Assembly (NCBI GenBank): GCA_034189865.1
Contig: JAXHTV010000006.1
Span: forward strand, 1-64,000
Direction of reading: 5' to 3'
Source: Pseudomonadota bacterium
Lineage (GTDB): Bacteria; Pseudomonadota; Gammaproteobacteria; UBA5335
Length of the DNA stretch: 64,000 bases
Part shown: positions 43,747 through 48,352 of the stretch, one piece after another
How positions within the stretch are numbered: position 1 is the stretch's first letter
How the letters are laid out: the number at the start of each line of letters is the position of its first letter
Translations under genes and position numbers: made by a program
The notes under the pieces: model-generated
What the model saw: only the letters and a program-made list of their open reading frames with translations
Told to the model about the DNA's origin: nothing
The model's database searches: none

Positions 43747-44083
43747 GTTTTCCCGAAAACTAGCCAGCTGCGACTGATCTCTCTTTCCATCGTGGCTGCA
43801 GTTCGGCCTAGCGTCCGGTGAATCCGGGCGCTAGGCTGGCTATTGTTTGACAATACCTAATCTAGCCCACCACCAGACCGTCAAACTAACGCTCAACCAC
43901 CCGCCTATTCTGCCGATAGAGCCACAACAGGATGGCTTGAATAACAATCTCTGTGAAAGCCCGTTTCCGGAGTGCCGTTGGGCTGATCCCAACTCGAAAC
44001 GGGGCGAACGGACTATTCATCACGGTTATTCCGTCTTGAACCACGATCCGGCAATTCATCAGAGCGGAGAGAACTATCTAAAG
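43747..44083. other. Intergenic region between the RRM gene and the CheY-like gene (337 bases)
   Basis: It contains the terminator hairpin at 43806-43836. The rest is the upstream region of the signalling operon. The frame of the next gene stays open back to 43847, but that part has no recognisable domain, so I treat it as non-coding. Confidence 0.5.
43806..43836 (+). terminator. Probable terminator after the RRM gene
   Basis: A 13-bp stem with one G-U pair (43806-43818 with 43824-43836) and a 5-base loop, followed by TGGCTATTGTTT, a weak T-rich tail. Confidence 0.7.
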
Positions 44084-44449
44084 ATGGCGGTTTCAACCCT
44101 CATTTGCGACGACTCAGCCATGGCACGCAAGCAAATTTCTCGTGCGCTGCCGGAAGAATGGCTTGGCTCGATTCGAATGGCTTCCAATGGCGTCGAAGCA
44201 CTTGAAGTGATTCGGACCGGTGGTGGCGACTTGGTTTTTCTCGACTTGACCATGCCGGAGATGGACGGCTTCCAGGTCCTTGAAACCATCCGACGCGAAG
44301 ATCTGAACACCCTGGTGTTTGTCGTATCCGCTGACGTACAACCCGAAGCGCGAGCACGCGTGATGGAACTGGGAGCGCTGGATTTTATTCGCAAGCCTGT
44401 CGACAAAGAGCGGCTTCGCTCGGCCATGAAGAGCTGTGGGTTGCTATGA
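44084..44449 (+). CDS. Single-domain response regulator (CheY-like)
   Basis: A 121-residue receiver domain without an output domain. Acidic pocket D9/D10, phosphoacceptor D54 (VFLDLTMPEMDG), conserved Ser82 and Lys104 (FIRKPVD). It overlaps the following CheC-like phosphatase gene by ATGA, which suggests that the phosphatase acts on this regulator. No histidine kinase is encoded next to it, and no other chemotaxis genes are in the window. Confidence 0.92.
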   Translation: MAVSTLICDDSAMARKQISRALPEEWLGSIRMASNGVEALEVIRTGGGDLVFLDLTMPEMDGFQVLETIRREDLNTLVFVVSADVQPEARARVMELGALDFIRKPVDKERLRSAMKSCGLL

Positions 44450-45081
44450 ACACGGCCGTTCAGTTCACCGAAGCGCAGCGTGACTGCCTCCAAGAGACGA
44501 TCAATATTGCCATGGGCCAAGCCGGCGACTCCTTGGCGAGGCTTTTGAATGTCTTTATCTATCTTTCGGTCCCTACAGTTTCCTTGATCGCGCCAGGACA
44601 AATGATCGGGGCGCTGAGCGGTTTGCTAAAACACGACTCCGCCGTATCGGCCGTACGCCAGGGCTACTACGGCGCCACCGATCCCCAAGGATTGCGGGGA
44701 GAAAGCATTGTGGTTTTCAGTGATGCCAGTTACCACGAGCTCGCTAATCTGCTAGCCTACGACAGTCAGTTGGACCTTCACGCCCAGCAGGAACTCCTGC
44801 TGGATGTGAGCAACATTCTGAACGGTGCATGCCTGGGTAGCCTTGCCAACCAGCTTGGCCAGCAGTTGAGCTATGCGCCCCCGGCATTGATCGGCCAAGG
44901 CATTCCAATTCAAAACGTTGTCGACCCACAGCAATTAAACTGGCACCAGGTCTTGGTTGTTAACATCAATTACAAGCTCGAAAACAATAGATTCCAGTGC
45001 GACATGTTGCTGCTTATGCCGGATCCCACTGTCCGCGTGCTATTACAATCATTAGATCGAATTCTGGATCAATTGGAGTGA
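44446..45081 (+). CDS. CheC-like phosphatase (CheC/CheX/FliY family)
   Basis: A 211-residue protein with two copies of the CheC active-site pattern: ETINIAMGQAG (E17, N20) and DVSNILNGACLG (D120, N123). CheC proteins dephosphorylate CheY-P. In the second site Asp replaces the usual Glu. It sits between a CheY-like regulator and a diguanylate cyclase, joined by 4-base overlaps on both sides (ATGA and GTGA), so the three are probably translated together. Confidence 0.85.
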   Translation: MNTAVQFTEAQRDCLQETINIAMGQAGDSLARLLNVFIYLSVPTVSLIAPGQMIGALSGLLKHDSAVSAVRQGYYGATDPQGLRGESIVVFSDASYHELANLLAYDSQLDLHAQQELLLDVSNILNGACLGSLANQLGQQLSYAPPALIGQGIPIQNVVDPQQLNWHQVLVVNINYKLENNRFQCDMLLLMPDPTVRVLLQSLDRILDQLE

Positions 45082-46043
45082 GTGAATTACCGCTTGCCCG
45101 GATTTTTCCGCTGATTGTCGACCAAATCAACCTGGGTGTTTTCGTGGTCGATAAAGACATGCGCGTCCAATTGTGGAACCGTTATCTGGCCAGTCGCAGT
45201 GGATATCCCAGCGACGAGATCGTGGGTAAGAACCTTTTCGATGCCTTTCCCGAACTACCTAAAGCGTGGCTAGAAAAGAAGATTCACAGCGTTTTCGTTC
45301 TGAACAATTTCGCCTTCACATCTTGGGAACAACGCCCCTTTCTCTTTCCGTTTCAACACAACCGGCCGGTTACCGGAAACCTCGAGCACATGCGTCAGGA
45401 TTGCACGTTTTTTCCTTTGCACCTGGACCCGAGTGGCGAAGTCTCCGCGGTGTGTATCACCATTAGCGACGCCACAGATGCAGCGATCTATCACACACAG
45501 CTATCGACCACACTGCAAAAACTGGAAGAGCAAAGCCAATTGGACGGACTCACTGAAACGTTCAATCGCGCCTATTGGGAGCAGCGCTTGCGTGAGGAAA
45601 TCGCGCGAACTCAGCGTTATGCACACCCCTTGTCACTGGTGATCTGCGATTTGGACCATTTCAAGGACGTCAACGACGAATGCGGACATCTGGCCGGTGA
45701 CGCCGTACTTCGAACCATAACCGGACGACTGAGGGGCGCGCTCCGCAAGACCGACATCCTCGGACGCTACGGCGGCGAGGAATTCGGCATCGTCCTGCCG
45801 GATACCGATCTTGGCAACGCCATCCGCGCCGCGGAACGCTTGCGCCGTGGCGTCTCGAGCAAACTCATCCCATTCGAAGAGAACGAGCTGTACATCACGG
45901 CGAGTTTGGGTGTTGCGCAGTGGCATGACAAAATGGACTCGGTGGAAAGTTTTATTGCCGCCGCAGATCAAGCACTCTATCAAGCCAAGGCTTTAGGAAG
46001 AAACAGGGTCTGCGCGGCGGCTCGAGCGGGTAAAGTGGCTTGA
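45078..46043 (+). CDS. PAS-domain diguanylate cyclase
   Basis: A 321-residue protein: PAS domain (about 10-135, with GVFVVDKDMRVQLWN), a short helix and a GGDEF domain with intact active site GGEEF (232-236), metal site DLDHF (191-195) and the inhibitory I-site RKTD (223-226), five residues before GGEEF. It should make cyclic di-GMP and be product-inhibited. Start GTG 45078 overlaps the CheC-like stop; the frame extending to 44997 lies inside that gene. Confidence 0.88.
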   Translation: MSELPLARIFPLIVDQINLGVFVVDKDMRVQLWNRYLASRSGYPSDEIVGKNLFDAFPELPKAWLEKKIHSVFVLNNFAFTSWEQRPFLFPFQHNRPVTGNLEHMRQDCTFFPLHLDPSGEVSAVCITISDATDAAIYHTQLSTTLQKLEEQSQLDGLTETFNRAYWEQRLREEIARTQRYAHPLSLVICDLDHFKDVNDECGHLAGDAVLRTITGRLRGALRKTDILGRYGGEEFGIVLPDTDLGNAIRAAERLRRGVSSKLIPFEENELYITASLGVAQWHDKMDSVESFIAAADQALYQAKALGRNRVCAAARAGKVA

Positions 46044-46074: not shown

Positions 46075-46719
46075 GTGATCATTGATATCTACGCCGACAC
46101 CACTTGTCCTTGGTGCCTGATCGGCAAACGCCAGTTAGAACGCGCTTTACGTGAGACAGGCCGGGAAGATGCCATCATTCGTTGGCGGGCTTTCCAAATT
46201 TACCCTCACATGCCTGATCGTGGGGGTTCGAGAACCGAGTGGTTGGCTTACCGTTATCCCGAACCGGTCATGCTGCGCGATACCATGCAGAGACTCCACT
46301 CACTGGCAGCCCGGGAGAACGTTGAACTTGATTGGGCCAAACTCGATCATTTGCCTAACACCAAAGATTCCCACCGACTGATACGACTCGCCGCTGATTT
46401 CGACTGTCAGGAGACTATTGTCGATTCCGTGTTCGAAGCTTATTTTCTGCAACAGCGGGATATCGGTGACCGAGATGTATTATTGGACATCGCGAAAAGT
46501 GGGGGATTGAACACCGACATGGTAGCAACCCACCTTGATAGCAATGACGGCGTGGCAGAGATCAAGTCCGATGACCAATACGTCCGGCGACAGGGAATCG
46601 GCGCCGTTCCGTTATTTGTCTTCGAAGGCGAGATGGCTTTTACCGGCGCTCAGGACATGCGGGTATTCCGAGCGGTCTTTGACAAAGTGGATAAACTGAT
46701 CGCCAAACGAAAAACATAA
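46075..46719 (+). CDS. DsbA-family oxidoreductase, FrnE type
   Basis: A 214-residue thioredoxin-fold protein without signal peptide. The redox motif CPWC is at 11-14 and the cis-Pro loop GAVPLFVF near 177, as in FrnE and polyketide-associated DsbA-like proteins. It is probably a cytosolic thiol-disulfide oxidoreductase. It starts at GTG 46075, 31 bases after the diguanylate cyclase, and may belong to that operon. A terminator follows. Confidence 0.87.
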   Translation: MIIDIYADTTCPWCLIGKRQLERALRETGREDAIIRWRAFQIYPHMPDRGGSRTEWLAYRYPEPVMLRDTMQRLHSLAARENVELDWAKLDHLPNTKDSHRLIRLAADFDCQETIVDSVFEAYFLQQRDIGDRDVLLDIAKSGGLNTDMVATHLDSNDGVAEIKSDDQYVRRQGIGAVPLFVFEGEMAFTGAQDMRVFRAVFDKVDKLIAKRKT

Positions 46720-46816: not shown

Positions 46817-48118
46817 TTACAAGGCAGTAACCTTGGTCGATACCGGGTCCAGATATTTTTCGATTTCGGCCGTGGGATCGCTGCCTTCCCAAATGCCATC
46901 GGCAAAGTAGAGATTCACTCCTAAATCCACGTCCACACCGGTGGGAATATCGGATACGACGTAACCGACCTGTGGATGCGAACCTTTATAGCGCTCGGGC
47001 TTATCCGGATCATCGCCGGTCGTGTCATCCATGTACAGGATATCCAAGCCGGGACTAAATCCTTCAGATAAATAGAACGTCGCCAGAATATCGAAGCCCT
47101 TATCGTGGCTGCCGGTCAGCCAGTTGGATTCCAGATCGACTTTCTGCTGCGATGCCAAATCACTTTTCTCACCCGTCACCAGAGCCTCTTCCGGCCCCAA
47201 CGCGGAACGGATCTTGGCACCTTCGAGTTCGTGGAAATCGAGCGAGATCTCAATCTTGAGATCACTCAATGCAGCGGCCGCCGACGGGATCGTGGCCAAA
47301 ACCGGAACCTGCAATGAACCCGGCGCGATCACGAAATCAGCGCCCGCAGTCAAGAGGGGAATCCGTAAGATGGTAATCGACGCATCCGCCTCAACGATGC
47401 TGCGCACCGGTCCGTTTTTGACGGCAAGGACCTCGTTCGGAATCAAACCATTGTGGATGGTGGCTCGCACGAAGCCCAGTTTGGCTCGTACCCGCACTTT
47501 CATCGTGTCCAAAATCGTGCGGTCTTCGGCAAAGTCCTTGAATTTGAAGTCGCTCCAGGTCAGCGGACTATCGGGGTCCATTTGTAATGACCAATAATCG
47601 GTTTTGGCCACGCCCGTTTCGCGATCGTAATGCGTATACTCCTTGTCGCTGCGGGCGCTGTTGCCTTTCACGACGTAGGCGTACCCCGTGGATTTCCCGT
47701 CGCCGACTTCAAGTTCGGAGACCAGCGTGCCTTCAACAGCAGCTTTGGCTTCATCGCTGGCTTGCGGTCCGGTGTCTTTGAACATAAACACCAGCTCGTC
47801 CTGCGCATCGAGAACACCTTCTGTGCCGTTGATGGCGAACTTACCGCCGGGGACATATGGGAAACCCCGCTCGTTAATATCATCGAATTGATACGGAATC
47901 GGTGCCAATTGTCCGTCAACGACGGCCATCACGGAATAATCCGCCGTCGCCTGACCCGACAACGCTGTTAACTTTTCGCCCTTGATAACAGCCACTTCCA
48001 ACTGCCGGGCTGCGCCCAACGGTTCACCGATAGGGGCTGCATTAGTGGCGCCCATCATCGCCACCGGGGTAATAAGTGCCATCCCCAATCGAACGGCGGA
48101 CGTATAGAAACTACGCAT
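46817..48118 (-). CDS. Secreted protein of unknown family
   Basis: A 433-residue protein with a signal peptide (about 1-28, ending GATNA-A). The mature part looks like a mostly beta secreted protein with short acidic stretches (DDTTGDDPDKPERY) and no cysteine or catalytic motif that I recognise. SD GGAGG lies 11 bases before ATG 48118. It is divergent from an alpha/beta hydrolase across 234 bases and ends at a shared terminator. A periplasmic or extracellular location is likely; no function can be given. Confidence 0.8.
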   Translation of the reverse strand: MRSFYTSAVRLGMALITPVAMMGATNAAPIGEPLGAARQLEVAVIKGEKLTALSGQATADYSVMAVVDGQLAPIPYQFDDINERGFPYVPGGKFAINGTEGVLDAQDELVFMFKDTGPQASDEAKAAVEGTLVSELEVGDGKSTGYAYVVKGNSARSDKEYTHYDRETGVAKTDYWSLQMDPDSPLTWSDFKFKDFAEDRTILDTMKVRVRAKLGFVRATIHNGLIPNEVLAVKNGPVRSIVEADASITILRIPLLTAGADFVIAPGSLQVPVLATIPSAAAALSDLKIEISLDFHELEGAKIRSALGPEEALVTGEKSDLASQQKVDLESNWLTGSHDKGFDILATFYLSEGFSPGLDILYMDDTTGDDPDKPERYKGSHPQVGYVVSDIPTGVDVDLGVNLYFADGIWEGSDPTAEIEKYLDPVSTKVTAL

Positions 48119-48352
48119 AAAATTAAACTCCTCCAAATGAGTCACTCTGATCTGAAAACCTGTCCCGACCGATGCCGATAAGGACGTCCCCCCTCGCTTA
48201 TAACCGCGCTAGCGGTCAGGCTATCTCAGGTCCGCTCCATCTAGCGGTAGAGCAGCTTAGCGGATGCTCAGATCCTAGCGCACTGTCATAATGGACGCCC
48301 GATTTTAACCTTGTCTGATCGACAAAGAACAGGGGAAAAGGATGTCTCTGCT

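Follow-up and report, generated by a model that had tools for sequence, protein, structure and literature searches.

The window, by which we mean the whole stretch of 64,000 nucleotides that was analyzed, carries three genes that run in one direction on the + strand and encode a receiver (44084–44449), a CheC-type protein (44446–45081), and a PAS-GGDEF protein (45078–46043). Each gene overlaps the next by 4 bases, ATGA at 44446–44449 and GTGA at 45078–45081, and the signature residues are intact in all three proteins. The frames, order, and strand agree with a preliminary description of this DNA, which had recognized a receiver, a CheC protein, and a PAS-diguanylate cyclase with 4-base overlaps. 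The features of the region, with the basis of each assignment, are as follows.

43803–43839, +, terminator-like hairpin of 16 pairs, downstream of the RRM gene and ahead of the trio
44084–44449, +, single-domain receiver, PdcC-like, 121 residues (Pfam, residues, homology to Burkholderia cenocepacia)
44446–45081, +, predicted CheC-type phosphatase, PdcB-like, 211 residues (Pfam, alignment with 1xkr, residues)
44494–44505, +, CheC site 1, E17–N20 (alignment with 1xkr)
44803–44814, +, CheC site 2, D120–N123 (alignment with 1xkr)
45078–46043, +, PAS-GGDEF diguanylate cyclase, PdcA-like, 321 residues, GTG start (Pfam, model)
45114–45503, +, family-specific PAS domain (conserved residues)
45522–46016, +, GGDEF domain (Pfam, residues, fold match)
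45744–45755, +, I-site, R223xxD226, intact
45771–45785, +, active site, GGEEF, intact
46075–46719, +, DsbA-like thioredoxin-fold gene, 31 nt past the last stop of the trio

The ten flanking genes that were scanned (38–49 kb) are housekeeping genes or have no assignment, and neither a receptor nor CheD, the partner of CheC in chemotaxis, was found among them. Searches of the window's own genome gave no CheW or HATPase_c match inside the 64-kb window, and none lies among the flanks scanned, which bears out the earlier statement that the trio has no kinase nearby. The hairpin upstream of the trio is suggestive only of a transcript that may begin with the receiver gene, and the number of terminator-like sites in the region (3, compared with 3.3 in shuffles) is not above chance. 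No terminator-like site was found between the trio and the DsbA-like gene, which is possibly co-transcribed with it. The DsbA-like gene is nevertheless outside the conserved module and does not occur in the flank families common to at least five loci. Farther downstream, 46817–48145 on the – strand encodes a protein of 442 residues that, judged by eye, may have a signal sequence and to which no Pfam family matches at E 0.001.

Conserved residues of the three proteins

The receiver (Response_reg, E 2.9e-27) keeps its phosphorylation residues intact and lacks an output domain. Its signature comprises Asp9, Asp10, the phospho-acceptor Asp54 (44243–44245), Ser82, and Lys104, and the phosphorylation residues are invariant or almost so across the 75 receiver rows of the alignment.

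The second protein matches the CheC family (PF04509) with an E value of 2.7e-6 and 27.7 bits, the cut-off being 22, over the single stretch of residues 12–46. Assignment to the CheX family (PF13690) was rejected; the score of 17.1 bits is below the cut-off of 27, and the genome itself has no match to PF13690. Thermotoga CheC (1xkr) is the nearest solved relative by sequence and matches over the full length (E 6.9e-6). In that alignment Glu17–Asn20 corresponds to its first site and Asp120–Asn123 to its second, so that, with the positions read off the Thermotoga protein, the first site has the E..N residues of a CheC active site intact and the second has Asp where the motif has Glu. The two active-site copies that had been noted earlier therefore hold by full-length alignment. 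In the family alignment, site 1 has Glu in all 97 and Asn in all 98 rows that have a letter at these positions, whereas site 2 has Asp in 90 and Glu in 8 of 98, with Asn in 86, Ser in 10, and Thr in 2. The replacement of Glu by Asp in site 2, which had been singled out before, is thus present (Asp120) but is not peculiar to this protein; it is what most of the family has, and the two Burkholderia CheC proteins that were inspected share it. The presence of the catalytic residues suggests that the CheC protein of the trio would dephosphorylate the receiver.

The third protein matches GGDEF (E 5.6e-48) and PAS_4 (E 2.2e-8). The intact active site and I-site of the preliminary description were confirmed as GGEEF and R223xxD226; the active-site residues are conserved across the family, and the I-site is intact in all 78 rows of relatives with letters there. 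The PAS domain has its own set of conserved residues, namely Trp33, Asn34, Lys68, Phe80, Trp83, Arg86, Met105, Gln107, Pro113, Asp131, and Thr133. A model of the complete protein had a pLDDT of 90.6 and a pTM of 0.69, and its GGDEF part closely matches solved cyclases, superimposing on 3ign with an rmsd of 1.0 over 166 residues (Z 28.5). A phage or viral origin was considered and rejected. None of the 58 viral stretches that fit a pattern encodes a relative; 95 phage records match the cyclase, those listed mostly through the GGDEF part, and only 1 of the 95 covers 80% of the cyclase.

Distribution and variation of the module

The search for the same trio in other genomes that had been suggested at the outset found the set recurring across beta- and gammaproteobacteria, and for that reason the association of the three genes is far beyond chance. 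The abstract of Wang et al. 2022 is said to describe homologous operons as widespread in both classes. Near the window's genome the module is patchy: of the 56 genomes searched, 12 encode CheC relatives, one of them being the window's own, and the eight further genomes from its family or order have none. At least 582 stretches from named genomes code for a relative, and 80 of these were kept. In a survey of 323 genomes of the class, 62 had a CheC-family match and 48 had the PAS domain at E 1e-10. All 41 strong CheC matches in these genomes are followed by the PAS domain 3–88 nt downstream, compared with 9 of the 27 weak matches; CheC proteins at large thus also occur in other settings. Conversely, CheC lies upstream of 50 of the 52 PAS matches. 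The CheC-PAS pair thus hardly ever splits. The plasmid search for CheC gave 49 records, and each of the 20 rows listed adjoins a PAS match from a separate search (compared by eye).

The organization of the module was compared in 98 loci, a set that includes the window (L001) and two loci with an identical CheC sequence, L002 and L053, both of which were counted. Separate genes encode the receiver and CheC in 48 loci, the two are fused in 27, and 23 have no receiver above the threshold beside CheC. The last group comprises five loci at contig ends (L014, L022, L024, L034, and L050); two distant relatives, L011 and L012, that have weaker receiver neighbors (both) and a weaker cyclase neighbor (L012) below the thresholds; and 16 others. 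For these 16, eight genomes were searched, and seven of them have an orthologue of the receiver elsewhere, with 53–60% identity; none was found in the genome of L052. In Cellvibrionales-type genomes (L135–L141) the lone receiver gene adjoins an aminotransferase-like gene, away from CheC and the cyclase, and in several of them YihY-like and arsC-like genes, named from reading their translations, are on its other side. No kinase gene was found beside these lone receiver genes.

A third protein with the PAS domain is present in 96 of the 98 loci and falls into three groups. (i) In 79 loci the PAS domain is followed by GGDEF, which is degenerate in L046 and cut by the contig end in L007. (ii) In seven loci it is followed by a histidine kinase. 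(iii) In ten loci it is followed by something else or nothing; these include the CheA-like protein of L015 (see below), a probably broken cyclase (L045), and proteins that consist of the PAS domain only, beside REC-CheC, in Vibrio and Pseudomonas. The constant part of the module is the receiver, CheC, and PAS, the PAS domain rather than the cyclase being the conserved third part and GGDEF one of several outputs attached to it. In a quick tree of CheC (96 rows), in which 36 of 92 inner branches are open and many are weak, the output switches at least nine times and the state of fusion at least four times. The fused receiver-CheC protein of L090 was modeled with a pLDDT of 83.9 and a pTM of 0.78; the matches listed in a fold search with this model were all receiver chains, the absence of CheC chains there being uninformative.

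Two unusual arrangements were also seen. A metagenome-assembled genome of Algicola sp. (L015:7636–10560) encodes a CheA-like protein of 974 residues with PAS, Hpt, HATPase, and CheX domains, so that a single chain holds both a CheA-like kinase and, in CheX, another domain of the phosphatase type. The mobilizable plasmid pOCN014 of Vibrio coralliilyticus (L096:2451–8564) has a cluster encoding an HDOD-receiver protein, a receiver, CheC, a PAS-histidine kinase, an EAL protein, and an HD phosphohydrolase; here a form of the module with a kinase output adjoins genes whose domains are typical of proteins that break down c-di-GMP.

Relation to known systems

The trio had been put forward for as long as it was not a known, widespread module of characterized function, and the Burkholderia pdc operon is one. 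The PdcABC proteins of Burkholderia thailandensis (BTH_II2363–II2365; orthologues BPSS2342–2344 in Burkholderia pseudomallei) are reported to be the same three proteins, PdcC being the receiver, PdcB a CheC/CheX protein, and PdcA a PAS-GGDEF cyclase (PMC9899790). The trio is a module of the PdcABC type that has already been described, a fresh member and not a novel system. According to the same report, the operon couples a phospho-signal to c-di-GMP: phosphorylated PdcC binds the PAS domain of PdcA and inhibits the cyclase, and PdcB acts by dephosphorylating PdcC (PMC9899790). The coupling proposed in the preliminary description is thus reported for the homologous operon and would extend to the trio by homology.

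Identities were computed against a locus of B. cenocepacia (L206) that has the same gene order as the window and are 54% over 121 residues for the receiver, 33% over 210 for CheC, and 45% over 304 for PAS-GGDEF, so that the Burkholderia CheC is distant in sequence from that of the window. The loci of B. cenocepacia and Burkholderia multivorans differ from the window in having a divergent hybrid kinase gene beside the trio. This gene is directly upstream (L206:1266–3515 and L094:916–3246), and the protein has a weak dCache match, HisKA, HATPase, and a receiver; it is a candidate for the kinase of the receiver in Burkholderia.

Mutants of orthologues have been described. Loss of the B. cenocepacia cyclase BCAM2836 is reported to increase swimming by up to 18% and to change biofilm formation, and the cyclase gene is said to be cotranscribed with the CheC/CheY gene BCAM2837, an arrangement like that of the window trio (PMC6335245). 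A mutant of an orthologous cyclase, II2523, reportedly has changed biofilm and raised motility (PMC9040570). The BCAM2837 mutant is described as able to swim but defective in swarming; BCAM2837 is given as one CheC+CheY protein and, in strain J2315, as a pseudogene (PMC3296584), whereas the window has two genes.

In Pseudomonas syringae, Psyr_0886/PSPTO1039 combines a receiver with CheC and is counted among the orphan response regulators (PMC2222644). By analogy with Pseudomonas asturiensis (L097), in which the neighbor is a PAS-only protein without GGDEF, Psyr_0886 is probably a fused form of the module; the window trio, in contrast, is unfused and has GGDEF. Purified Psyr_0886 is reported to have shown no detectable phosphorylation by BphP1, the one kinase tried (PMC5654926); dephosphorylation by its own CheC part could have masked a faint signal. 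The chemotaxis CheC of Bacillus and Thermotoga shares homology and active-site motifs with that of the window (1xkr), but its partner is the flagellar switch, whereas the partner here is a cyclase and site 2 has Asp in place of Glu.

Proposed mechanism and alternatives

We consider it highly probable that the trio is a phospho-switch of the PdcABC type acting on c-di-GMP synthesis. A histidine kinase would phosphorylate the receiver at Asp54, for which the necessary residues are seen; the phosphorylated receiver would dock on the PAS domain and restrain GGDEF, as reported for PdcC and PdcA; and CheC would strip the phosphate by means of Glu17 and Asn20, as reported for PdcB, freeing the cyclase and raising c-di-GMP. 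The gene overlaps would keep the three products in step. This interpretation is preferred because each gene is homologous to its counterpart in the Burkholderia operon and the order is identical; because the mechanism of that operon has been described (PMC9899790); because the residues of the receiver, of CheC site 1, and of the GGDEF active site and I-site are conserved family-wide; because CheC and PAS keep together (41 of 41 and 50 of 52); because the receiver is fused to CheC in 27 of 98 loci and unlinked orthologues occur in seven of eight genomes; and because the orthologue mutants are reported to have altered biofilm, motility, and swarming. Against it count the identity of just 33% between the CheC protein and its Burkholderia counterpart, the outcome for Psyr_0886, the lack of CheC relatives in the eight genomes of the same family or order, and the weak CheC matches, of which 9 of 27 are followed by the PAS domain. 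All of these reactions and their sign are attributed to the trio by homology, and the gammaproteobacterial branch may use another sign of control than inhibition by the phosphorylated receiver.

The kinase that supplies the phosphate is the one point at which a rather unlikely alternative departs from the PdcABC-type switch: the flagellar CheA would feed the receiver, and the trio would branch off from chemotaxis to set c-di-GMP. This would account for the lack of a kinase gene beside the trio, and the own genome, with 6 CheW, 17 HATPase_c, and 33 GGDEF matches (the last count including the trio cyclase), has two frames, 680 and 1900 residues long, in which CheW and HATPase_c matches occur together and which are of the CheA type. 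All 62 class genomes with a CheC-family match have CheW, compared with 244 of the 323 overall (lists compared by eye). When an E value below 1e-34 was taken as a strong CheW match, a proxy for the flagellar type, such a match was present in 38 of 39 genomes with a strong module and 118 of the 284 others, a difference (Fisher p about 2e-12) that is uncorrected for kinship or genome size. CheW was also present in all 28 module-bearing genomes chosen from the named records. The hybrid kinase that adjoins the trio in Burkholderia and the branches in which PAS-histidine kinase takes the place of PAS-GGDEF point instead to dedicated kinases. A conserved neighboring kinase was looked for among the flank families common to at least five loci, and none was consistent; two of these families, each at five loci, are signaling-like by eye, a Hpt-like protein and a large PAS-rich protein. 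Because CheW is also found in 244 of the 323 class genomes, CheA is a candidate kinase for the receiver and nothing beyond that.

Two other alternatives concern the contacts within the trio. PAS domains often bind ligands, and the preliminary description had supposed that this one may do so. It might then respond, as a conventional sensor, to light, redox state, or a small molecule, with the receiver and CheC belonging to a separate pathway and merely co-transcribed; the strong conservation of aromatic and charged PAS residues would suit such a sensor. We regard this as improbable, since CheC is directly upstream of PAS in 50 of 52 cases, PAS-only proteins persist beside REC-CheC in Vibrio and Pseudomonas, and the PAS domain of PdcA is reported to bind phosphorylated PdcC (PMC9899790). 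That the PAS domain persists where GGDEF is missing or a kinase has taken its place argues for a contact point for the receiver or CheC, and a docking site for the receiver is favored here over a ligand sensor. Alternatively, CheC could be mainly an adaptor, the complex of CheC with the phosphorylated receiver controlling the PAS protein and phosphatase activity being secondary. There is a precedent in Bacillus subtilis, where the CheC-CheD interaction reportedly outweighs the phosphatase activity of CheC (PMC3513319), and CheC and PAS adjoin even where the receiver gene has moved away. The invariance of the catalytic Glu17 and Asn20 and the reported dephosphorylation of PdcC by PdcB (PMC9899790) speak against such an adaptor, and we judge it unlikely.

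A broader proposal, which we hold tentatively and at somewhat less than even confidence, is that the receiver, CheC, and PAS form a portable read-out cassette in which PAS is the landing pad for the phosphorylated receiver and the outputs are swapped. Different loci would carry GGDEF, HisKA-HATPase, a CheA-like kinase that includes CheX, or no output at all. Where the output is a kinase, the receiver would regulate the enzyme that phosphorylates it and so close a feedback loop; where the PAS domain stands alone, it would work by binding another partner.

What the survey adds to the described module is that its PAS domain is constant while the outputs are swapped, that the receiver and CheC are fused in some loci, and that receivers encoded elsewhere in the genome still go with it. 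The question of what the PAS domain senses becomes one of receiver docking, which is testable, and the relatives with swapped outputs are natural experiments. A phosphatase-controlled c-di-GMP switch that, as far as we have found, was hitherto known mainly from Burkholderia is thereby placed across beta- and gammaproteobacteria.
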